A stretch of DNA of 32,319 nucleotides, taken from Candidatus Cloacimonadota bacterium. Lineage in GTDB: Bacteria > Cloacimonadota > Cloacimonadia > Cloacimonadales > Cloacimonadaceae. Positions within the stretch are counted from its first letter, which is position 1; the number at the start of each line of letters is the position of its first letter. Below are positions 3,051 through 23,321 of the stretch, piece by piece. A model generated the notes under the pieces. The model saw only the letters and a list, made by a program, of their open reading frames with translations. It did not search any database and was not told where the DNA came from. The translations under genes and the position numbers were made by a program. The stretch lies in the NCBI GenBank assembly GCA_027318475.1, contig DAHVPC010000014.1, forward strand, positions 1 through 32,319. Reading direction: 5' to 3'.

Positions 3051-3130
3051 TGTCCACTCGGACGGGAAAAAGAATTGACTAAATCCGCCCTCTGGTTTTG
3101 TGGGGAAAAAACGTCTCATTTGAGGTACCC

Positions 3131-6100
3131 ATGAAAAAGCTGATCATCATCGTCGCGCTTCTCATAGCGATCGGAGCTATGTCCGCGATAAAATTCGACC
3201 CGGACTTGTTTGTCTCCCGGTCCATCATCGTCTGTTTCACAAAAACAGCGGTGGGCAATGACACCGGTAAGATAGATTACATCCTGCGCAATGGCGCTGT
3301 GCATACAGGCCTGCCCTCGTTCGACCGCCTGGCCACCCAATACGGCATCGTCGAACTGCAGCAGATGCATGCCGACCTGAAAGATCCCACCTGGAACGAC
3401 AACGGCCTCTATCTGCAAAACACCTACAGGCTCATCCTGAAATCCGATGATCAGATCGACAGCGCTGTGGAAGCGCTGGCCAAAGATACAAACCTGGTCT
3501 ATGCCGAACTGGAAGGCATCGTGCGCAGCAAGTTCGTGCCCAACGATCCCATGGTTACGCAACAATACACACACGCCAGAATCCAGAGCTACGACGCCTG
3601 GGATTACATTCAGGGCTCGTTTGACGTCAAGGTCGCCATCACCGATTCCGGCGTGAAATGGAACCATCCCGACCTGCGGGCCAATATCTGGGTCAATCCC
3701 AACGAATCGCCCGGCATGACCATCAATTGGGACGCCGGCACGATCTCTGGCGGCAACGGCATCGACGACGACGGCGGCACCTATGGCAAGATTGATGACC
3801 TGGTGGGCTGGGACTTTTACAACAACGACAACAACCCGATCCAAACCTATGTCGCCAACGACCACGGCACGCATGTGGCCGGATGCGCTGGCGCCGTGGG
3901 CAATAACGCCATCGGAGTCGTGGGCACTTCCCCCATCGTCTCTATCATTTCCTGCAAAGGCGCTTCCAACACCGCTCCCTCCACCGGTATCTCCTACGCC
4001 TACGAGCAAGTCAGATACGCCGCCGAACTTGGCGCGCAGATCGTCAATTGCAGTTGGGGCAGCACCGGAACAGGCGCTTACCCCAATTCCATCGTGAACT
4101 ACGCCACCACCATGGGGGCCTTGGTCGTGGCAGCCGCCGGCAACGAAAACACCGAGCACACCGCCAGTTATCAAGATTACCCCGCCGACTGCACCAACGC
4201 CCTGTGTGTGGCTTCCACCGGCCAGAACGACGTCAAATCCAGTTTCTCCGATTATGGCGCCGCCATCGATATTTGCGCCCCGGGCGAAGGCATCCTTTCC
4301 ACGATCATAGCCAGCAACGGTTATGACGCCTATGACGGCACTTCCATGGCGTCACCGGTTGCTGCCGGAGTGGCTGCGATGGTGAAAGCCCTGCATCCTG
4401 AACTTACTCCCTCCCAATTGATGCAACGCTTGATGGCCACCGCGGACTATATTTACGACGCGAATCCCAACTATGTGGACAAGCTCGGCGCCGGTAGGAT
4501 CAACGCTTTCACCGCCACGATGTATGACAAGATCCCCAACATCACCATCGACGACAAGATGGTGGAAGAGTTTTCCGGAGACGGCGACGGCGTTCCCAAT
4601 CCCGGCGACGTGATCCGCCTCAGGGTCTCTCTGAACAATTATCTGGATCCATTCACAGGCCTGGCCTGGCTCACCGCCACCAACCTCCAGGCCAATCTCA
4701 CCTGCTCCTATCCCGGCGTCACCATTATCGACGGCACCGCCAGCTACGGCAACCTGGGACCCGGCAGCACGATGTGGAACAACAACCAGCCTTTCAAATT
4801 CCAAACCGTGTCCACCCTGCCCTCCGAACCGATTCCTTTTGAACTGGTCCTGACGGCCAACGCAGGCGCGGCCTTCCCCTACAACAAAACCATCCCCTTC
4901 ACCGTAAGCCTTTCCCTCATCCAATCAGGCTGGCCCTACAACGTTGGCGGCGCTTCGACCTGCAGCCCCATCATCGTGAACCTCGACGCCGATCCAGCCA
5001 GAGAGATCGTATTCGGCGACCAGACCGGCGCCATCCATGCCCTGAAAGCCGATGGCGAGACAGAACTGCCGGGATTCCCGATCCAGGCAGGCAGCGCGGT
5101 CATCGGCTCCATCTCCATGGCGGATGTGAACGGCGACGGCCTGCAGGAATTCGCAGTAAGTTTGCAGAACAACAACATCGTGCTGTTCAACCAGGCGGGA
5201 ACTGTCCTCTGGACCATGCCAGCCCCGGGAACCCTGCGCACCAGCCCGATCATCGCCTCGCTGGGCATGAACTCCCAACGCCAGATCATCACCGCCACCC
5301 AGACCGGCAACCTGATCGTGCTCAATCCCGATAACACCGCGTATCCGAACTTCCCCACCAATGTGGGCGGAGCGGTGTTGGGACCCCCTGCGGTCGCGGA
5401 TCTGAACGGGGACGGCGTCCATGAGATCATCGTGGCAACCTTGAACGGCAACCTGACCGCCTTCAACAGCGCCACCGGACAAAGCGCGGCGGGCTTCCCC
5501 GTAGCCATGGCTGGCGGCTCCCAAAACCCCATTACCATTGCCAACCTGGATGCCGATCCTCAGCCCGAGATCATCGTCACCACCAGCACTTCAGGACATA
5601 TTCTGGCTTACAATCACGACGGTTCCGTGTTTTTCCAGAAGAACGTGGGCGGCCAGATCAAATCCGGCGCGGTGGTCGCGGACGTCAATAACGACGGCAC
5701 CAAAGAGATCATCGTCACCGGCGCCACAGGCTATCTGTACATCATGAACCTGATCGGCAACGACCTTCCCAATACCCCGATAAACGTCAACCAGGCTGTG
5801 GATTGCACGCCCACGATCGCCCGTTTCGATGGCGACAACTACGCCGGGATAATCTTCGGCGACACCAATGGCCGGCTGCACAGCGTCCGCGCCGATGGCA
5901 CCGAGTCGCCCAACTTCCCCATCATCATGGGCGGAAACATCAAGGTTTCGGCAGCCTTGGGCGACGTCGACCTGGACGGCGATTTTGACATCGTGATCCC
6001 CAATGACGCCAGCTTCTACGTCGTGGACATCAAACGCCCCGCCCAATCCATCGAATGGCCCTGCTACATGGCCACCTACAACCGCGGCGGCAATATCTAC

Positions 6101-6415
6101 CAAGCCACTCCGAACCAGGACGAAAGCGTGCCTGAAGCTGCGACGGCCCTGCTGGGCAACTATCCCAATCCCTTCAATCCCAGCACCATGATCAACTTCG
6201 AGATTGCCACGCCTGGCGCAGTCAGCATCGAGATCTTCAATCAGAAAGGCCAGCTGGTAAAAATCCTGGTGAACTCCGATCTGCCCGCCGGAAAACACCA
6301 TGTGGAATGGAACGGCAAGGACGACTCGGGCTCCAGCGTCAGCAGCGGAGTCTATTTCTACCGCATGCGCAGTGGAAAATACTCCTCCACCCGTAAAATG
6401 GTGATGATGAAATAG
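3131..6415 (+). CDS. Secreted subtilisin-like protease with FG-GAP-like propeller and type IX sorting tail
   Basis: 1094 aa from the ATG at 3131 (GAGG at 3122-3125); an earlier in-frame ATG at 3098 would bury the signal peptide. Residues 1-19 are the signal peptide, 20-140 an inhibitor-like propeptide, and about 150-460 the S8 peptidase. The catalytic triad is intact: D172 (AITDSGV), H245 (NDHGTHVAG) and S405 (DGTSMASPVA), with oxyanion N338 in AAAGN. A beta-sandwich (about 465-610) is followed by eight 'DxNxDGxxEIIV'-type repeats, which suggests a beta-propeller with calcium-binding-like loops. Residues 1010-1094 form the 'NYPNPFNPST ... SGVYFYRMRSG' tail, the C-terminal signal of type IX secretion or an FlgD-like Ig fold. 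Probably an exported protease that digests extracellular protein; monocistronic with its own terminator. Confidence 0.93.
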   Translation: MKKLIIIVALLIAIGAMSAIKFDPDLFVSRSIIVCFTKTAVGNDTGKIDYILRNGAVHTGLPSFDRLATQYGIVELQQMHADLKDPTWNDNGLYLQNTYRLILKSDDQIDSAVEALAKDTNLVYAELEGIVRSKFVPNDPMVTQQYTHARIQSYDAWDYIQGSFDVKVAITDSGVKWNHPDLRANIWVNPNESPGMTINWDAGTISGGNGIDDDGGTYGKIDDLVGWDFYNNDNNPIQTYVANDHGTHVAGCAGAVGNNAIGVVGTSPIVSIISCKGASNTAPSTGISYAYEQVRYAAELGAQIVNCSWGSTGTGAYPNSIVNYATTMGALVVAAAGNENTEHTASYQDYPADCTNALCVASTGQNDVKSSFSDYGAAIDICAPGEGILSTIIASNGYDAYDGTSMASPVAAGVAAMVKALHPELTPSQLMQRLMATADYIYDANPNYVDKLGAGRINAFTATMYDKIPNITIDDKMVEEFSGDGDGVPNPGDVIRLRVSLNNYLDPFTGLAWLTATNLQANLTCSYPGVTIIDGTASYGNLGPGSTMWNNNQPFKFQTVSTLPSEPIPFELVLTANAGAAFPYNKTIPFTVSLSLIQSGWPYNVGGASTCSPIIVNLDADPAREIVFGDQTGAIHALKADGETELPGFPIQAGSAVIGSISMADVNGDGLQEFAVSLQNNNIVLFNQAGTVLWTMPAPGTLRTSPIIASLGMNSQRQIITATQTGNLIVLNPDNTAYPNFPTNVGGAVLGPPAVADLNGDGVHEIIVATLNGNLTAFNSATGQSAAGFPVAMAGGSQNPITIANLDADPQPEIIVTTSTSGHILAYNHDGSVFFQKNVGGQIKSGAVVADVNNDGTKEIIVTGATGYLYIMNLIGNDLPNTPINVNQAVDCTPTIARFDGDNYAGIIFGDTNGRLHSVRADGTESPNFPIIMGGNIKVSAALGDVDLDGDFDIVIPNDASFYVVDIKRPAQSIEWPCYMATYNRGGNIYQATPNQDESVPEAATALLGNYPNPFNPSTMINFEIATPGAVSIEIFNQKGQLVKILVNSDLPAGKHHVEWNGKDDSGSSVSSGVYFYRMRSGKYSSTRKMVMMK

Positions 6416-14593: not shown

Positions 14594-14634
14594 TCCTGTC
14601 AAGGTTTTTCTCCCCATTTTGGTACTTGACAGGA
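14594..14634. promoter_or_regulatory. Inverted repeat carrying divergent TTGACA boxes
   Basis: TCCTGTCAAG (14594-14603) and CTTGACAGGA (14625-14634) form a perfect 10-bp inverted repeat with 21 bp between. Each arm contains a -35-like TTGACA, one pointing to the beta-helix gene and one to the riboswitch. The -10 boxes expected 17 bp further (AACACT on the minus strand, AAAAAG on the plus) are poor. It may be a divergent promoter pair, a shared operator, or both. Confidence 0.4.
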
Positions 14635-14666
14635 TGCCCAGAACGGAGAAAAAGGCTCCAGAATAG

Positions 14667-14908
14667 ATGGTGCTACTTTCAGGTAAAAGGGAATCCCGTC
14701 GCGGACAGAGTCCGCCACTGTGCTGAGTGCGGACAGAGTCCGCCACAAGATAGTGTGAAGCGGGAGCGGTATCCGCCACTGTATGCAGCAATCAGGCCGG
14801 TCCAGTCACTGCCGATAAAGTGGGAAGGCTGGACCAGAAAACGCCGCTGCGAGCCAGGAAACCTGCCACCGATTCCGGACGAGTCATACGGATCATGTGA
14901 CTTGCCGG
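14667..14908 (+). promoter_or_regulatory. Cobalamin riboswitch with a palindromic insertion in P4
   Basis: The 3' B12 box GAGCCAGGAAACCTGCC (14851-14867) is near perfect, and CACTGCC...GTGGGAAGGC (14807-14829) is the conserved P6/J6-3 region. The 5' core AAAAGGGAA (14685-14693) leads into P4, TCCCG (14694-14698) with CGGGA (14761-14765), with conserved GTGTGAA at 14753-14759. ATCCGCCACTGT (14771-14782) is the P5 3' core. GGTG/CACC (14669-14672, 14867-14870) closes P1. A P13 hairpin (14875-14886 with 14898-14908) presents CGGAT (14889-14893), complementary to ATCCG (14771-14775) of L5: the canonical L5-L13 kissing loop. GTTCATC (14916-14922) can mask GGTGAAC (14942-14948) beside the ribosome site, so translational control is likely. 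It drives the propeller gene at 14953. Confidence 0.9.
14699..14752 (+). repeat. Palindromic repeat inserted inside the riboswitch P4
   Basis: GCGGACAGAGTCCGCCAC occurs twice with a 28-bp period (14701-14718 and 14729-14746). The two copies fold as one long hairpin: GCGGAC (14701-14706) with GTCCGC (14738-14743), a symmetric AGA/AGA internal loop, then GTCCG-C-CACT with AGTG-CGGAC (one bulged C) around a GTGCTG loop. The block lies between TCCCG and the conserved GTGTGAA; without it the P4 region matches the usual cobalamin aptamer. Confidence 0.75.
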
Positions 14909-14952
14909 GCCAGTAGTTCATCCCCGTTCAATATGGAATAAGGTGAACAACA

Positions 14953-16197
14953 ATGACGAACTCTCGCCGGCTTCTGCTGACGGCCGTGCTGCTGTTTTGC
15001 AAGATCGCGGCTGCCCTCGCTGCGGAAATCCTTGTGGTCAATTCAGCCTCACGCACGCTTTCGCGCCTCGACACTATTGAGGGAACAACCGACAATTCCT
15101 TTGCCCAATTGGGTTTGACACCCAATCTGATTGACCTTGACGAGGAGTATATCTACGTCGTTTGTTCCGGCGATAACGCCATCCAGGTGCTCGACCGCGT
15201 CACAGGAGCGCAAGTCCGCTATCTGCCTGTGGCCGCTTCCTGCAATCCCTACGACGTCTTGAAGGTGGGTGATTTCCTCTATGTGAGCGGCCTGTTCACC
15301 GACAAGGTGTACAAGATCAGCCTGCAGAGCAACTCCGTGGTGGCCACGCTTGAAGTCGGTACAGCGCCGGAAGGCCTGGCCACGGATGGAGCATATCTTT
15401 TTGTTTGCAATACGGGCGGCTACAGCAACAACTACGCGGGCTCATCCGTCAGCGTGATCGACTTGGATTCCTTTTCTGTGTCGGCAACAGTTCCTGTCTG
15501 GACAAACCCGCAGTACGCGGTCTTCCGGAACGGATTTCTGCATGTATCCTGCACCGGCAACTGGATGGATGTGGCGGGAAAGGTGGACGTGATAGACATC
15601 GCCACGCTGGAAAGAGTCCAGAGGCTGGATATCGGCGGACATCCGGGCAATTTGTGGATCAGCCCTTCCGGAACAGCCTATGTCAGCGAGGCCCTGGATA
15701 CGGGGCTCTATAGCTACAATGCCGCCAGCTACGTGGTCTATCATGGCTCCGCCAATCCTCTTCCCTACTCCGCGTCCATGCTGCATGGCAATGCCGGGAT
15801 CTTCGCGCTGCTGGAACAAAACTGGGTTTCCAACTCGATCGTGCGAACCTACCAAAGCGACTGGAGCCCTCTTCAGACTTTCACCGTCGGCCTGTCCGCA
15901 ACCGATATAGCGGTCACTGAGCAGCAAACTCCCGTTTATGAGGATCTGATCCAAACGCATTCTCCGGTCCTGTATCCCAATCCCCTGCCTCGCTCTACGC
16001 CGTTGAAAGTGCTGACTGCAGAAGCCGGCAGGACGGAATTGCGATTGTACAACCTGCGCGGACAACTGATACAGAACCACACGCTTCAGCCCGGTTCACA
16101 GGATATCATCCCGGCTGAACTGCCAGCAGGTGTGTATCTCTACAGCATCATCCAGGCAGGCAAAGCTCAGAGCGGCAAACTCCTGCTCCTGGACTGA
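14953..16197 (+). CDS. Secreted YncE-type beta-propeller under B12 control, BtuG-like candidate
   Basis: 414 aa. The ATG at 14953 follows AAGGTG (14940-14944 region). Residues 1-24 are a signal peptide (ALAA). Residues 26 to about 335 carry repeated blades such as 'EYIYVVCSGDNAIQVLDRVTG', 'FLYVSGLFTDKVYKI', 'GSSVSVIDLDSFSV' and 'GKVDVIDIATLERV', enough for about seven blades. Residues 339-414 ('VLYPNPLPRST ... LPAGVYLYSI') are a type IX secretion sorting tail. The cobalamin riboswitch immediately upstream shows that expression follows B12 demand. Bacteroides BtuG is a surface beta-propeller that binds cobalamin for the TonB transporter BtuB, so a capture role is a fair inference. Sequence-level homology to BtuG is not shown here, and no btuB is in the window. 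Confidence 0.82.
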   Translation: MTNSRRLLLTAVLLFCKIAAALAAEILVVNSASRTLSRLDTIEGTTDNSFAQLGLTPNLIDLDEEYIYVVCSGDNAIQVLDRVTGAQVRYLPVAASCNPYDVLKVGDFLYVSGLFTDKVYKISLQSNSVVATLEVGTAPEGLATDGAYLFVCNTGGYSNNYAGSSVSVIDLDSFSVSATVPVWTNPQYAVFRNGFLHVSCTGNWMDVAGKVDVIDIATLERVQRLDIGGHPGNLWISPSGTAYVSEALDTGLYSYNAASYVVYHGSANPLPYSASMLHGNAGIFALLEQNWVSNSIVRTYQSDWSPLQTFTVGLSATDIAVTEQQTPVYEDLIQTHSPVLYPNPLPRSTPLKVLTAEAGRTELRLYNLRGQLIQNHTLQPGSQDIIPAELPAGVYLYSIIQAGKAQSGKLLLLD

Positions 16198-16283: not shown

Positions 16284-17429
16284 ATGAACTACTTCCTCAC
16301 CGACGACCAGCTGGAAATGCAGGAAATCGCGCGCAGGATCGCCGTGGAAAAGATCAGGCCCCTTTCCGAGAAGTATGACGAAGAGGGGACTTTCCCCTGG
16401 GATATAGTGGAGATCATGCGGCAGAGCGACCTGTTTGCCATCCTCATCCCCGAAGAATACGGCGGCATCAGCGGCAAGGTCGCTGACCTGGCCATTGTAA
16501 CCGAAGAACTCTGCGCCGTCGATATGGGCATCTCGCTGGCCTTTGGCGTTACCGGCCTGGGAATGTATCCTATCCTCATCGCCGGCAGCGAAGAACAGAA
16601 GCAGAAGTATCTCTCACAGATAGCCAGCGGCGAGCGTTTGGCAGCCTTTGGCCTCACCGAAGCAGGCGCCGGCAGCGATGTTGGCGCGATGGCCACCACA
16701 GCCCGCAAAGAAGGCGGCCACTACGTGCTTAACGGTACCAAACAGTGGATATCCAACGGCGGCGAAGCTGAGATCTACACGGTCTTCGCCATGACCGATC
16801 CCGAAAAGGGAGCCCGTGGCTGTTCGGCCTTTATCGTGGAGAAAGGCACTCCTGGCTTCAATTTTGGCAAGAAAGAAAACAAGATGGGCATCCGCGCCAA
16901 TTCCACCCGCGAACTGGTCTTCGAGGATTGCGCCGTTCCAGCCGAAAACCTGTTGGGACGCGAAGGCACGGGATTCATAACCGCCATGAAGGTCTTCGAT
17001 AAATCCCGGCCCATGGTTGGAGCCCAGGCTGTTGGCGTAGCGAGGGGCGCTTTTGAGGTTGCGATCAAGTATTCCAAGGAACGCCAGCAGTTCGGCAAAC
17101 CGATCTCTTCGTTCCAGGCGGTGCAATTCATGCTGGCGGACATGGCCACGCAGATTGAAGCCGCCAGGGCTTTGGTGATGCAGACAGCCAGGATGATCGA
17201 CAACGGCGACAAAAACTATTCCAAGGAATCGGCGATGTGCAAATACTTCGCTTCGGACGTGGCGATGCAGGTGACCACCGATGCCGTCCAGATCCTGGGC
17301 GGATACGGCTACATGAAGGAATACCCGGTGGAAAAGATGATGCGCGACGCCAAGATCCTCCAGATCTACGAGGGAACGAACCAGATCCAGCGCGGGATCG
17401 TGGCTGCCAATCTGCTCAAGGAATTCTAA
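16284..17429 (+). CDS. Acyl-CoA dehydrogenase (short-chain/butyryl type)
   Basis: 381 aa, the usual length. An FAD enzyme that makes the alpha,beta double bond of acyl-CoA, or reduces crotonyl-CoA when coupled to an electron-transfer flavoprotein in fermenters. The all-alpha N-domain is followed by the FAD/substrate signature 'AFGLTEAGAGSD' (121-132) and 'KQWISNGG' (153-160). The C-domain has 'YSKERQQFGKPISSFQAVQ' and 'QILGGYGYMKEYPVEKMMRD'. The catalytic base is E363 in 'IYEGTNQIQRG'. The ATG at 16284 follows AAGGAG. No etfAB lies nearby. First gene of a four-gene plus-strand run. Substrate chain length cannot be fixed from sequence; the butyryl-CoA/short-chain subfamily is the best fit. Confidence 0.93.
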   Translation: MNYFLTDDQLEMQEIARRIAVEKIRPLSEKYDEEGTFPWDIVEIMRQSDLFAILIPEEYGGISGKVADLAIVTEELCAVDMGISLAFGVTGLGMYPILIAGSEEQKQKYLSQIASGERLAAFGLTEAGAGSDVGAMATTARKEGGHYVLNGTKQWISNGGEAEIYTVFAMTDPEKGARGCSAFIVEKGTPGFNFGKKENKMGIRANSTRELVFEDCAVPAENLLGREGTGFITAMKVFDKSRPMVGAQAVGVARGAFEVAIKYSKERQQFGKPISSFQAVQFMLADMATQIEAARALVMQTARMIDNGDKNYSKESAMCKYFASDVAMQVTTDAVQILGGYGYMKEYPVEKMMRDAKILQIYEGTNQIQRGIVAANLLKEF

Positions 17430-17436
17430 GCCCAAG

Positions 17437-17772
17437 ATGCACGCTTGGATCAAGGATTTCCCCGCGGCGATCACAGTCTGCGACCGGGATGGCATCATCC
17501 TGGAGATGAACGCCAAAGCTTGCGCGACTTTCGCTTCAGAAGGAGGAGCAGCGCTGATCGGCACCAGCCTTTTCGCCTGCCATAATCCCCATTCCGTGGC
17601 CGCGATCAAGGAAATGCTGGCCACTGGCGGGAAAAACGTCTATACCATCGAAAAGCGGGGCGTGAAGAAACTCATCTACCAGCATCCCTGGTATCAGGAC
17701 GGCCAGATTGCCGGATTGGTGGAGATCTCGCTGGAAATCCCGGAAACCATGGCGCACCATGTCCGTTCCTGA
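17437..17772 (+). CDS. Single-domain PAS protein
   Basis: 111 aa, essentially one PAS fold with no output domain. 'FPAAITVCDRDGIILEMNAKACATF' is a classic PAS start, and 'YTIEKRGVKKLIYQHPWYQDGQIAGLVEISLEIP' gives the closing strands. It begins 7 bp after the acyl-CoA dehydrogenase stop with only a weak ribosome site inside the preceding gene (AAGG near 17419), so translation is probably coupled. Its last 14 bp overlap queH. Such stand-alone PAS proteins occur in anaerobes; ligand and partner are unknown. A redox or small-molecule sensor acting in trans is possible but not shown. Confidence 0.8.
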   Translation: MHAWIKDFPAAITVCDRDGIILEMNAKACATFASEGGAALIGTSLFACHNPHSVAAIKEMLATGGKNVYTIEKRGVKKLIYQHPWYQDGQIAGLVEISLEIPETMAHHVRS

Positions 17773-18307
17773 ACATCTGTTATTGCATACCTGCTGCGCG
17801 CCTTGCCTGATCGCGCCCTACCGTCAATTGAAGCAGGAAGGGATCCGGCTCAGCGCTATGTGGTTCAATCCCAACATCCATCCCGTCACGGAATACCGAT
17901 CGCGGCTGGAATCCCTGCAATCTTTCGCGCAGACAGAGGGCTTTACCTTGCTGCTGCGCGACGAATACGGCCTGCGGGATTTTGTACGCGCCGTTGCTGA
18001 TGATGTGGATGGCCGCTGCGCGTATTGCTACAAGGTGCGTCTGGAAGCAGCGGTCCATGCCGCACAGGAGCAGGGCTGCGACGCTTTCTCCACTACGCTC
18101 CTGTACAGTAAGTACCAAAAGCACGACTTGATCAAAGAAATCGGCGAAGATCTCGCCCGTAAACACGGTATCGCCTTTTTCTACCGCGACTGGCGTCCGC
18201 TCTGGCAGGATGGGATCCGGCTCTCCAAAGAGGAGGGGATGTACCGCCAGAAATACTGCGGCTGCATCTTCAGCGAGGAAGAGCGTTATCTGGGAGCCAA
18301 ATCATGA
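17759..18307 (+). CDS. queH: Epoxyqueuosine reductase QueH
   Basis: 182 aa. QueH reduces epoxyqueuosine to queuosine in tRNA, the last step of Q synthesis, replacing the unrelated QueG. Conserved family features are present: 'HTCCAPC' near the start (C12, C13, C16), 'NPNIHP' (38-42), 'RCAYCYKVRLE' (C87, C90), 'TTLLYSKYQKHD', and 'QKYCGCIFSEE' (C167, C169). These cysteines supply the iron-sulfur cluster and redox pair. The start at 17759 was chosen because it begins just before the CCAPC block; an upstream in-frame ATG at 17708 lies inside the PAS gene. It overlaps the PAS gene by 14 bp and shares ATGA with the next gene. Confidence 0.93.
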   Translation: MSVPEHLLLHTCCAPCLIAPYRQLKQEGIRLSAMWFNPNIHPVTEYRSRLESLQSFAQTEGFTLLLRDEYGLRDFVRAVADDVDGRCAYCYKVRLEAAVHAAQEQGCDAFSTTLLYSKYQKHDLIKEIGEDLARKHGIAFFYRDWRPLWQDGIRLSKEEGMYRQKYCGCIFSEEERYLGAKS

Positions 18308-19334: not shown

Positions 19335-22300
19335 ATGAGAACACTGGCTCTGGCTATCATCCTTCTGGCGCTGTCCGGTTTATGCCACGGCGGTACATTG
19401 GTACTGAACGAGGCGGATAGCTGCGTTCGCTGCACCCAAAAAAATCCTGCCTATTTGAGTATCGAGATCAATATCGGAGCCCTGTTCACCGATTCCGAGG
19501 GCAGGATAGCGCTCCCTCCCCAGATCGGTTCATACGCCAGATACGACAAACTACTTCCCCGACTCACATTCAACGTGGCATTGCCCGAAAGCGGCGAATT
19601 CAGCGCGCGTACTAGTTTGCACGCGGTTCCCACCGATATCGCGAACGCGGATTCCCAGCAGTTCAACCCGGAATTGGTGACGCTCAGCAAACCCTATTGG
19701 CTGCGCGATATCCGGGGCATGGAAGTGTCGCTATGTCCATTCACAATGCAGGACGGCAAACTCGCGGTTATGGATCAGGTGCGTATCGACCTCATCCAGA
19801 CGCCAGCTCCAGCCACAGCAGGCGCAATTGTGCCAACCCGGAAACTCAATCCCTATTTCCTCGATATCTACAAACAGCACTTCATCAACTTCGCATATAG
19901 ATATGCAGACTTGGCGGAATACGGTTCCATGGCCGTTATCTGCCCCGCCCCAAGCTACGATCCGCAGATCCTCCAGTTTGCCGATTTGATCCAACCCTGG
20001 GTGGATTGGAAAAACCAGAAAGGCATCCCCACAACGGTTTACAACACAAGCGTGACCGGCTCCAGCTATCCCGAAATCAAGGGCTTCATCCAGAATCTCT
20101 ATGATCATGACCCCAATCTGACTTTCGTCCAATTGGTGGGGGACTTCGCCCAATTGCCCTGCCTGGTAACGACCATGTCCGGAAACACCGGCGGCATGGA
20201 TGCCTTCTACACATTATTGGAGGGTGACGACTATTATCCGGACATCTTTGTGGGCAGGTTTTCCGCCGAAACCGCCGCGGACCTTTACACCCAGATCAAG
20301 CGCAGCCTCGAGTATGAAAAGAATCCCAGCTCCGGAGCCTGGCTGAACCGCGCTGCCGGTGTTTGCTCCGACAATCCGCCAATTCCTGGCGACGACGATG
20401 AACACAACTGGGATCATCTGGACAACATCCGCGCCCAGCTTCTGGATTACGGCTACACCCAGGTCGACAGGATCTACGCCAATGAAGGCGCTACTTTGCA
20501 GGATCTGGTTGACATCCTCAATGAAGGCAGATCCCTGGTCAATTATTGCGGGGAGGGTTACACCACACACTGGGTCAATCCGCCCTTCTCCGTTTCCGAT
20601 GCCGCCAACCTCACCAACACCGGCATGCTGCCCTTTATTCACGTAGTATCTTGTTGGACGGGCCAATTCTACAACGGCACCTGTCTTTCCGAAGCGTTGC
20701 TGCGCAGCCGCGACGCCACAGCTGAAGAGGCGCGCGGAGCCATAGCTGTTTACGCCGCGGCTCCGGAACAGGGCATTGCCCCGCCGATGGAAGCGCAGGA
20801 CCATGCCCTGGAACTATTGATAAATGGAACTAAAAACACCATCGGCGGCCTGTGCTACAATGGTTCCTGCAGCATGATCGACGAGTATGGGGAACTGGGC
20901 GGGATTTACAATTTCCTGGCCTGGAACCTCTTTGGCGACGCCTCGCTGGTCCTCAGAACCAAGCAGCCAGAGGAAATCGCTGCCATTCTGCCTGCCGAAT
21001 TGCCTCCAAACTACGCGAACTTGGACATCGATGCGGGCGCGCCGGACATTCTGGTGGCGCTCTCCCAAGATAACGTTCCTGTCACAAGCGGGTTTTCCGG
21101 CGAGGATGGGATCGCGCATCTGAATCTATCGGATCTTCCCCAGCCCGGAGACAGCTTCCTGCTCACCTTAAGCGGCTTCAACCGCAGGCCCATTCAGCGC
21201 CAGCTTAATTGCTACGGCTACGGCGATCACGCTGTTTTGGATCTGACCTTGCTGCCCAGCGGCCAGTTCATCGAACCGGAAATTGAGATCTTCAAAACAG
21301 TCCGGATAATCAACAGAGGCACTGTCGCGGCTGCCAACGTCATCGTCCAATTGTGGCCCAGCGATCCCAGCGAAAACCTGACACCCATGACCGGTTTGGT
21401 TAATCTGGGCCAGATCCTGCCGGGCCAACAAAAGGAGGGAACCCTCTCCTACAAGGTCAACAAAGGCACCCAGGATATGTCAACCGTGCATTACACCATC
21501 GCGGTTGGCAATGACGGCCAGAGCTACGCATTTTCCGACCTTATGCACGCCCCCTTGATCGTCCTCGAAAGCCTGCACAGATCGCCCCAGCCCAACTGGA
21601 TAAACCCCGGCGACAGCTTTGACCTGACCTATAAGATCAGAAACTCTGGCAGCGCTGTATTGAGAGACCTGGGCGGCGTATTGGAATCGTGTTCAGACCC
21701 TCTTTTGGTCACTGAGCAGGATAACCGCCAGCTGACGCTCGCGCCAAACTGCGCCGATTCTCTCACGTTTCGCCTGGCAGTATCACCCGGCTGCCCCACA
21801 CTTAACAGCGTAACCACGGCATTGCATCTGGACGCGCTGAACTCCCTTGGCTACTACCAGCATAACTGGCTGGTGGCCACGCCAGAGAAGACGATGGAGA
21901 GTTTTGAATCGCGCGATCTGCAGGCTTTCCCCTGGCTCTATCAATCCAGCCACTGGACTTTCGATACCAGCGGAATCGATGGAAACTGCTGCCTGCGATC
22001 CCAAGCTGTGGGAGCGGATTCCATCTCTCTGCAGCTGAGTTTCATAGCGCTGCAAGCAGGGGAAATCGAGTTCTTCTACAATGTTTCTCGAAACGCCTCC
22101 AGTAACGATATCTGGACTTTCCGGCTGAACCAGGATGAAATCTCTGAACTGACGGAAGTCAACTGGTGGAGCATGAAACGTGTCTACTGCCATACCGGGC
22201 AAAACACGGTCAACTGGGTGGGCAGACGCGATCCTGCCAACGGAATCTGGACCAGCAACCTGATGCTGGACGCCATCCAATTTTCGGCCAAAACAGTGTT

Positions 22301-23321
22301 TGACAATGCCCAATTGGTGCCAGATCTGGATGCGTTAGAGATAATCCTGGCCCCTGGTGAGATCCGCCAGATTCCGCTGCGTTTATCATCACTGGATGGC
22401 AAATACATCCACTACGACGCGGTGTCTCAAATCCCATCGGATATGGAACTCCGTTCGGAAGGGCCGCGCATTACCTGCAATAAAAGTATGTTTGAGGCCG
22501 GAACTGCCGAGCTGTTCATCTTTTCCCTCCACAACGCCGTCCCCAACAACTCTCTGATAAATGTCAATATCGAGTTGCCCGATGGGATTCTGGCAACTTC
22601 CGCGTCCCCCTTTGCCCTGCCTGGACAAGCCTCGCTGCCTTTCGTTGGCGGCTTGGGCAGTTTTTCTGAGCTGGATTGGCACAGTGATACGGGAAGCATG
22701 GCCGACAGCCTGCGTTCCGGCGTCCGGATGTCCTTCGACAGCGGGACGCCAAGCGTGATCCTGCCTTACAACATCGAATCCCTTGATCCCTCCGGCCAGG
22801 TCGTCCATTCTTACGGAGAACTCGAGCTGAACAACGCTTCCACTTCGCTTGAATGCTTGGCTATCATAGTTGGAGAGGGTGAATTGCAGGACGAGGAAAC
22901 AGCTGAATTGCTGCTTACGGCCAATCAAAACCTGATGCGTTCCGCTCAGGAATCCTATACCCTGAGTATCTACTACAACGGCTCGCGCAACCTGTCCATT
23001 CCTGTCAGGATCGTTTACGATGAAAATCCTCCCGGCTTCTACGACACCCCGCGCCTGATAAATTATCCCAATCCGGCCAAGGTTTCCACAGTTTTCGCCT
23101 ATTCAGTTATCGAGGACGGCTTGACCACACTGACTATCTACAACATACGCGGACAGAAGGTGAAAACCCTTGTGGACGCCGACCTGGACAAAGGGTATTT
23201 CAGAAGCACCTGGCAACTGGATGACGACCGGGGCGAACAAGTGGCAAGCGGCATCTATTTTTGCCGGCTCAGGACCGCATCGGGACAAACCAAGGTTCTG
23301 CGCTGCGCCGTTATTAGATAA
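19335..23321 (+). CDS. Secreted gingipain-like C25 family protein, catalytic His position altered
   Basis: 1328 aa. The ATG at 19335 follows AAGAAGG. Residues 1-19 are a signal peptide and about 25-190 a propeptide-like domain. The C25-type peptidase region spans about 195-560: 'FVQLVGDFAQLPC', 'DDYYPDIFVGRFSAET' and catalytic-type Cys C440 in 'IHVVSCWTGQFYNGTCLSEALLR'. At the catalytic His position gingipains read 'NYTGHG', whereas this protein reads 'NYCGEG', with E407; a second His (H412) is four residues on. Activity is therefore doubtful. Then follow Ig/CARDB-like modules, a concanavalin-like region (about 850-990), and a type IX sorting tail (1243-1328, 'NYPNPAKVST ... SGIYFCRLR'). Monocistronic. 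Confidence 0.88.
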   Translation: MRTLALAIILLALSGLCHGGTLVLNEADSCVRCTQKNPAYLSIEINIGALFTDSEGRIALPPQIGSYARYDKLLPRLTFNVALPESGEFSARTSLHAVPTDIANADSQQFNPELVTLSKPYWLRDIRGMEVSLCPFTMQDGKLAVMDQVRIDLIQTPAPATAGAIVPTRKLNPYFLDIYKQHFINFAYRYADLAEYGSMAVICPAPSYDPQILQFADLIQPWVDWKNQKGIPTTVYNTSVTGSSYPEIKGFIQNLYDHDPNLTFVQLVGDFAQLPCLVTTMSGNTGGMDAFYTLLEGDDYYPDIFVGRFSAETAADLYTQIKRSLEYEKNPSSGAWLNRAAGVCSDNPPIPGDDDEHNWDHLDNIRAQLLDYGYTQVDRIYANEGATLQDLVDILNEGRSLVNYCGEGYTTHWVNPPFSVSDAANLTNTGMLPFIHVVSCWTGQFYNGTCLSEALLRSRDATAEEARGAIAVYAAAPEQGIAPPMEAQDHALELLINGTKNTIGGLCYNGSCSMIDEYGELGGIYNFLAWNLFGDASLVLRTKQPEEIAAILPAELPPNYANLDIDAGAPDILVALSQDNVPVTSGFSGEDGIAHLNLSDLPQPGDSFLLTLSGFNRRPIQRQLNCYGYGDHAVLDLTLLPSGQFIEPEIEIFKTVRIINRGTVAAANVIVQLWPSDPSENLTPMTGLVNLGQILPGQQKEGTLSYKVNKGTQDMSTVHYTIAVGNDGQSYAFSDLMHAPLIVLESLHRSPQPNWINPGDSFDLTYKIRNSGSAVLRDLGGVLESCSDPLLVTEQDNRQLTLAPNCADSLTFRLAVSPGCPTLNSVTTALHLDALNSLGYYQHNWLVATPEKTMESFESRDLQAFPWLYQSSHWTFDTSGIDGNCCLRSQAVGADSISLQLSFIALQAGEIEFFYNVSRNASSNDIWTFRLNQDEISELTEVNWWSMKRVYCHTGQNTVNWVGRRDPANGIWTSNLMLDAIQFSAKTVFDNAQLVPDLDALEIILAPGEIRQIPLRLSSLDGKYIHYDAVSQIPSDMELRSEGPRITCNKSMFEAGTAELFIFSLHNAVPNNSLINVNIELPDGILATSASPFALPGQASLPFVGGLGSFSELDWHSDTGSMADSLRSGVRMSFDSGTPSVILPYNIESLDPSGQVVHSYGELELNNASTSLECLAIIVGEGELQDEETAELLLTANQNLMRSAQESYTLSIYYNGSRNLSIPVRIVYDENPPGFYDTPRLINYPNPAKVSTVFAYSVIEDGLTTLTIYNIRGQKVKTLVDADLDKGYFRSTWQLDDDRGEQVASGIYFCRLRTASGQTKVLRCAVIR

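Follow-up and report, generated by a model that had tools for sequence, protein, structure and literature searches.

Which protein does a cobalamin riboswitch control in a bacterium of the anaerobic and little-known phylum Cloacimonadota, and does that protein serve the capture of vitamin B12? The question is raised by a 32,319-nt stretch of DNA (the window), in which a riboswitch lies upstream of an open reading frame of 414 amino acids. From the letters of the window alone, an initial annotation had proposed that the product is a BtuG-like B12 capture protein, exported by means of a type IX secretion system (T9SS) tail. The locus was examined here together with its counterparts in a survey set of 80 genomes, comprising the source genome (2.34 Mb in 251 contigs, approximately 89% complete) and 79 relatives.

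The riboswitch leader

The elements of the leader are the following, all on the forward (+) strand.

14626..14631, +: TTGACA, probable -35 promoter element, similarly spaced 5' of the riboswitch in 13 of 13 aligned relatives
14651..14884, +: cobalamin riboswitch aptamer RF00174 (Rfam cmscan, 64.5 bits, cut-off 31.5, E 6e-14)
14700..14754, +: aptamer insertion of ~55 nt, within a peripheral hairpin loop; not present in aligned relatives
14771..14775, +: L5 loop ATCCG, complementary to 14889-14893, its L13 kissing partner
14851..14867, +: B12 box GAGCCAGGAAACCTGCC, read from the sequence within the RF00174 match
14882..14902, +: P13 hairpin with the L13 loop CGGAT at 14889-14893 (covariation, minimum-energy fold)
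14916..14922, +: anti-Shine-Dalgarno element GTTCATC, pairing with GGTGAAC at 14942-14948 in the minimum-energy fold
14940..14948, +: Shine-Dalgarno region AAGGTGAAC, conserved in relatives, shortly 5' of the ATG

The cmscan match covers the full length of the model (positions 1-189) above the gathering cut-off and ends 68 nt before the start of the 414-aa frame. It is the single Rfam match in the window and the sole cobalamin riboswitch in the source genome. With a score twice the threshold it bears out the riboswitch that the initial annotation had proposed, and the B12 box and the L5 and L13 loops lie where that annotation had put them; the match begins 16 nt before the start given there. 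A chance match is ruled out by the score and by the recurrence of the riboswitch in 68 of the 80 genomes.

Conservation of the leader extends beyond the aptamer. More specifically, the leaders of 13 relatives all keep the upstream TTGACA, which is probably a -35 element, as well as the aptamer, the P13 hairpin and AAGGTGAAC or a near variant; the GTTCATC element is retained in most of them. Across 24 leaders, 91% of cells are paired in P13, with two-sided changes at five of its six pairs, and 82% in the GTTCATC/GGTGAAC helix, compared with 37-47% in slid controls of the whole leader structure. The observed covariation score was reached by no shuffle, the shuffles being of a kind that ignores relatedness. 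The two loops also co-vary across relatives (AACCG/CGGTT, ATCCG/CGGAT, CTCCG/CGGAG or CGGGG); of the leaders in which both loops are readable, six contain a mismatch. The minimum-energy fold contains both the P13 and the Shine-Dalgarno/anti-Shine-Dalgarno hairpins, and its overall stability is ordinary (z -1.3). The leader would thus look like a translational off-switch, with a presumed direction of control and dependence on the ligand.

The insertion holds two palindromic 18-nt copies of GCGGACAGAGTCCGCCAC (14701-14718 and 14729-14746), which resemble the adjacent P5 element (GCGG..CCGCCACTGT). A dispersed repeat is ruled out, as the sequence has no other occurrence in the source genome, and Tandem Repeats Finder detected no array in the insert. 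Because the insertion is confined to this one genome among those aligned, it is probably a local duplication.

Linkage of the propeller gene to B12 uptake genes

Orthologues of the protein, a beta-propeller, are present in 71 of the 80 genomes. Most (57 of 71) share a strand with a cobalamin riboswitch and lie 3' of it, and none lies on its wrong side; 37 of the 71 start less than 200 nt from the riboswitch, and a further 20 are found 2-9 kb downstream on the same strand. The 14 orthologues that have no linked riboswitch include some at contig ends and five that form a subclade of genus g10 (locus L078; genomes G021, G026, G031, G037 and G046), and in these five genomes, all of which keep the propeller, no cobalamin riboswitch was detected.

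Five further families of the order have the propeller as the last gene of a riboswitch operon that also holds btuD-btuB and, usually, btuF-btuC. The order is riboswitch-btuF-btuC-isc-btuD-btuB-propeller, with the propeller last, in families f7-f10 and riboswitch-btuD-btuB-propeller in family f2; in family f6, btuB and the propeller adjoin at a contig end and riboswitch-btuF-btuC is on another contig. Within the family of the source genome the locus takes the form of riboswitch-propeller alone or of riboswitch-btuB-propeller (L104), and in two loci (L072, L073) of riboswitch-btuB-riboswitch-propeller, where two riboswitches approximately 2.5 kb apart precede one gene each. A divergent iscR-nifS-nifU group of iron-sulphur genes was also observed within the operon for B12 uptake throughout the order (L083-L086, L090-L092, L095-L097, L105).

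The neighbouring genes were identified from Pfam and NCBIfam, mostly with scores below the NCBIfam equivalog cut-offs, and their btu names therefore rest on best match and context. Among curated families, the TonB-dependent receptor fits the vitamin B12 receptor best, and a profile built from 13 such receptors retrieved BtuB in all ten of its best PDB matches, with Bacteroides BtuB2, BtuB3 and BtuB1 first. These matches bear on whether the system handles cobalamin itself or a related molecule, such as cobinamide, another corrinoid or heme. Against heme/iron families the ABC components reach similar scores, and BtuG2 is known to bind cobinamide as well; however, the riboswitch is of the cobalamin class, the top matches of the receptor profile are B12 transporters only, and the permease has BtuC models among its best matches, so that a different ligand is the least probable of the readings considered here.

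In the source genome, btuD-btuB is located on contig C221, where nifS still adjoins it (L123), and btuF-btuC on contig C217. No riboswitch was detected above either pair, and in this genome the propeller is thus the only gene that a known cobalamin switch precedes. The expectation that BtuB genes would be found under the same type of riboswitch therefore held for the relatives but not for the source genome, whose btuB and btuC are present without one. A use for the vitamin would be provided by a methylmalonyl-CoA mutase pair, which is B12-dependent; the activation domain of the B12-dependent methionine synthase MetH was not found in this genome. Whether B12 synthesis might explain the riboswitch was assessed through CbiC and CobS, neither of which was found in the approximately 89% of the genome that is available.

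A scan of genome contigs across a wider collection returned two Cloacimonadota orthologues and two weak matches in Gemmatimonadota; spread of the protein beyond Cloacimonadota is therefore not demonstrated. Cobalamin riboswitches were also seen in other settings among the relatives. One lies directly 5' of an NRDD-type anaerobic ribonucleotide reductase gene with an ATP cone in the same genus (L099:1-1176), possibly reflecting a B12-controlled choice of isozyme, and another, in family f11, precedes a gene for a fused beta-alpha succinate-CoA ligase (L087:6520-9698).

Elsewhere in the window, the propeller gene is followed by genes for an acyl-CoA dehydrogenase and QueH (16284-18307), as it is in several genomes of the genus. 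The 86-nt gap after the propeller contains a TTGACT, which suggests that the dehydrogenase may have its own promoter. The window also encodes a subtilase with an FG-GAP propeller and a T9SS-type tail (3098-6415) and a C25 (gingipain-type) peptidase whose T9SS-type tail scores below the Pfam cut-off (19335-23321).

Fold, conserved face and predicted export of the propeller

The gene and the parts of its product are as follows.

14953..16197, +: gene for a 414-aa secreted BtuG-like propeller protein with a T9SS tail (Pfam/NCBIfam, AlphaFold, Foldseek, profile)
14953..15024, +: signal peptide, approximately residues 1-24 (...AAALAA/EIL), with no lipobox (sequence)
15025..15930, +: seven-bladed propeller, approximately residues 25-326 (DSSP of the AlphaFold model)
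15970..16194, +: T9SS type A sorting domain, residues 340-414 (TIGR04183, 38.1 bits, cut-off 23)

This architecture of signal peptide, YNCE-type propeller and sorting tail is the one that the initial annotation had assigned to the frame. By Pfam, a YNCE propeller match lies marginally above its cut-off and Por_Secre_tail is matched at the C-terminus. The propeller families of NCBIfam match at a sub-threshold level only, and the YncE equivalog NF052280 scores 12.8 bits against a cut-off of 400. The AlphaFold model (mean pLDDT 93) consists of seven blades closed by N-terminal strands, the blades being assigned by eye from DSSP, and a C-terminal beta domain.

A search of the PDB with this model by Foldseek is revealing of the closest folds. 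Ranks 2 to 17 are all BtuG structures, which superpose at 2.9-3.7 A with TM scores of 0.74-0.80 by target, except for 8blw_B, a chain with an additional domain, for which the value is 11 A. The likeness to BtuG that had been suspected from the sequence is in this way upheld by structure. The first rank by E-value belongs to an archaeal tandem YVTN surface-layer propeller (1l0q), but this superposes at 16.6 A, and ranks 18 onward superpose poorly. A second orthologue, taken from a complete btuFCDB operon, again placed BtuG at ranks 2 to 17, mostly at 2.9-3.8 A. Supporting the same relationship, a profile of 48 orthologues matched BtuG1 chains with an E-value of 5e-22, versus 3e-6 for Escherichia coli YncE. 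The single-sequence match to BtuG (E 3e-6) is weaker than the BlastP limit of 1e-10 that has been used to define BtuG (PMC6143338).

Alternatively, the protein could be a generic surface propeller of the YVTN/YncE type that has another ligand or role and has come under the riboswitch by chance gene order. This would agree with the archaeal surface-layer protein being the best single hit by sequence as well as by E-value and with the sub-threshold NCBIfam matches. Against it, YncE and every other seven-bladed propeller rank below the BtuG structures, and the association with the riboswitch recurs in most families of the order in both direct and operonic arrangements. Such a coincidence is accordingly very improbable, though a little less so than a different ligand.

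Loops on the B-C and D-A face of the propeller show higher conservation than those on the other side (Mann-Whitney P = 6e-4). Among the conserved residues are N30, N58, N75, P99, P139, Y161, N185, W204 and W291, of which the aromatics W204, Y161 and W291 are on the conserved loop face. In BtuG2 the aromatics of the pocket are Trp194, Trp272 and Tyr316, and a loop, Asn54-Thr64, has been reported to hold the ligand. In the profile alignment the stretch N30-S-A-S-R-T-L-S of the window protein aligns with the N-terminal blade loop of BtuG1, which by our reading would be the same loop as Asn54-Thr64. Mapping of the BtuG2 pocket residues by sequence gave blade-shifted registers, in which the tryptophans are without clear positional equivalents. 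This latter result, and likewise a Tyr316 with no clear counterpart, would be compatible with a propeller that acts as a surface partner of BtuB in B12 uptake, either as a lid or as a stabiliser, and has no high-affinity cobalamin binding of its own, for which the same operon linkage and riboswitch would be predicted. However, the conservation of the loop face is of the kind expected for a ligand site and the close fold matches are BtuG structures, and a partner of this sort is unlikely, if the most plausible of the alternatives.

The predicted route of export differs from that of BtuG, a lipoprotein that bears a lipobox and an export signal (PMC6143338). No lipobox is present in the window protein, and just 2 of the 48 orthologues show a lipobox-like pattern; all 48, on the other hand, match the T9SS type A sorting domain. 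Because the defining lipoprotein anchor was looked for and is lacking, the protein is called BtuG-like and not BtuG. A SprA_N match (51.7 bits, cut-off 27) in a 2154-aa frame of the source genome points to a SprA-like T9SS translocon and agrees with the published statement that the T9SS may occur in Cloacimonadota (PMC11285876). From these signals the propeller would be displayed at the surface through the T9SS. Type A tails are generally cleaved, after which the cargo is attached or released. This, together with the want of a lipid anchor, leaves room for a propeller that is secreted and released as a diffusible cobalamin binder, its ligand being taken up later, instead of a tethered lid; the btuB-propeller gene order in other families nevertheless suggests a one-to-one partner, and release is an improbable outcome, to much the same degree as a partner without binding or very slightly more so.

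Proposed function and comparison with known systems

Taken together, the independent lines of regulation, operon context, fold and physiology support the BtuG-like capture reading with which the analysis began, in which cobalamin binding is a prediction. The protein is probably a BtuG-type cobalamin-capture lid for BtuB that is exported by the T9SS and repressed by B12 at translation; we infer that it binds cobalamin, makes contact with BtuB and sits at the cell surface, as well as the sense in which it is regulated and its fate as a tethered or released protein. The locus would then be a B12-repressed gene for a surface capture protein. At high intracellular levels cobalamin would bind the leader RNA, P13 and the kissing contact between L5 and L13 would form, and the anti-Shine-Dalgarno helix would block translation of the propeller. 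When cobalamin is scarce the propeller would be made, cross the inner membrane by its signal peptide and pass the outer membrane by the T9SS via its C-terminal domain. At the surface, its conserved face would bind corrinoids and pass them on to BtuB, the TonB-dependent receptor, in the manner of Bacteroides BtuG, for import by BtuF and BtuCD and use by methylmalonyl-CoA mutase.

BtuG has been reported as exclusive to Bacteroidetes (PMC6143338), and no paper found in the library searched describes a BtuG-type protein or B12-riboswitch loci in Cloacimonadota. On balance, though with less assurance than for the function of the protein itself, we favour a lineage-wide, T9SS-exported and possibly diffusible BtuG-type capture outside Bacteroidota, such that capture by a surface propeller would predate the gut Bacteroides or extend beyond them, with its export re-routed. 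If true, assisted B12 capture would be a wider strategy of FCB bacteria, with a lid that can be delivered by another route, and a testable function would be gained for a protein whose annotation otherwise stops at a YncE-like propeller and a sorting domain. Members of Cloacimonadota are frequently found in anoxic sediments and anaerobic digesters, habitats in which the organisms of a community exchange corrinoids, and a secreted high-affinity binder would affect that exchange.

The riboswitch shares its B12 box, L5-L13 pair and P13 with other members of RF00174 and differs from them by the insertion of about 55 nt in the peripheral loop, which is not seen in aligned relatives. Among proteins, DUF4465 (BtuJ) and BtuH are likewise additional surface B12 binders in riboswitch loci but belong to other protein families; no domain of the DUF4465 or BtuH type was found in the window protein by Pfam or NCBIfam. 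DUF4465 was shown beyond Bacteroides in 2026 (PMC13398666). The YncE and YVTN surface-layer propellers (1l0q, 3vgz) have the propeller repeat sequence in common with the window protein, which 1l0q superposes on poorly over its whole length. The closest comparison is with BtuG1, BtuG2 and BtuG3 of Bacteroides thetaiotaomicron (8bmy, 8ptd, 8okv, 3dsm), with which the seven-bladed fold is shared at approximately 3 A and at 12-18% identity. BtuG is characterised by femtomolar cobalamin binding and by the formation of a complex with BtuB. Both BtuG and the window protein carry an export signal and a conserved loop face, and BtuG stands beside btuB in cobalamin-riboswitch loci, as the propeller does in the relatives studied here. 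In contrast, BtuG comes from Bacteroidetes, sits with btuB and has a lipobox cysteine and a lipoprotein export signal, whereas the window propeller comes from a phylum outside Bacteroidetes, is the only riboswitch gene of its genome, apart from btuB, and combines a Sec signal peptide with a T9SS C-terminal domain.
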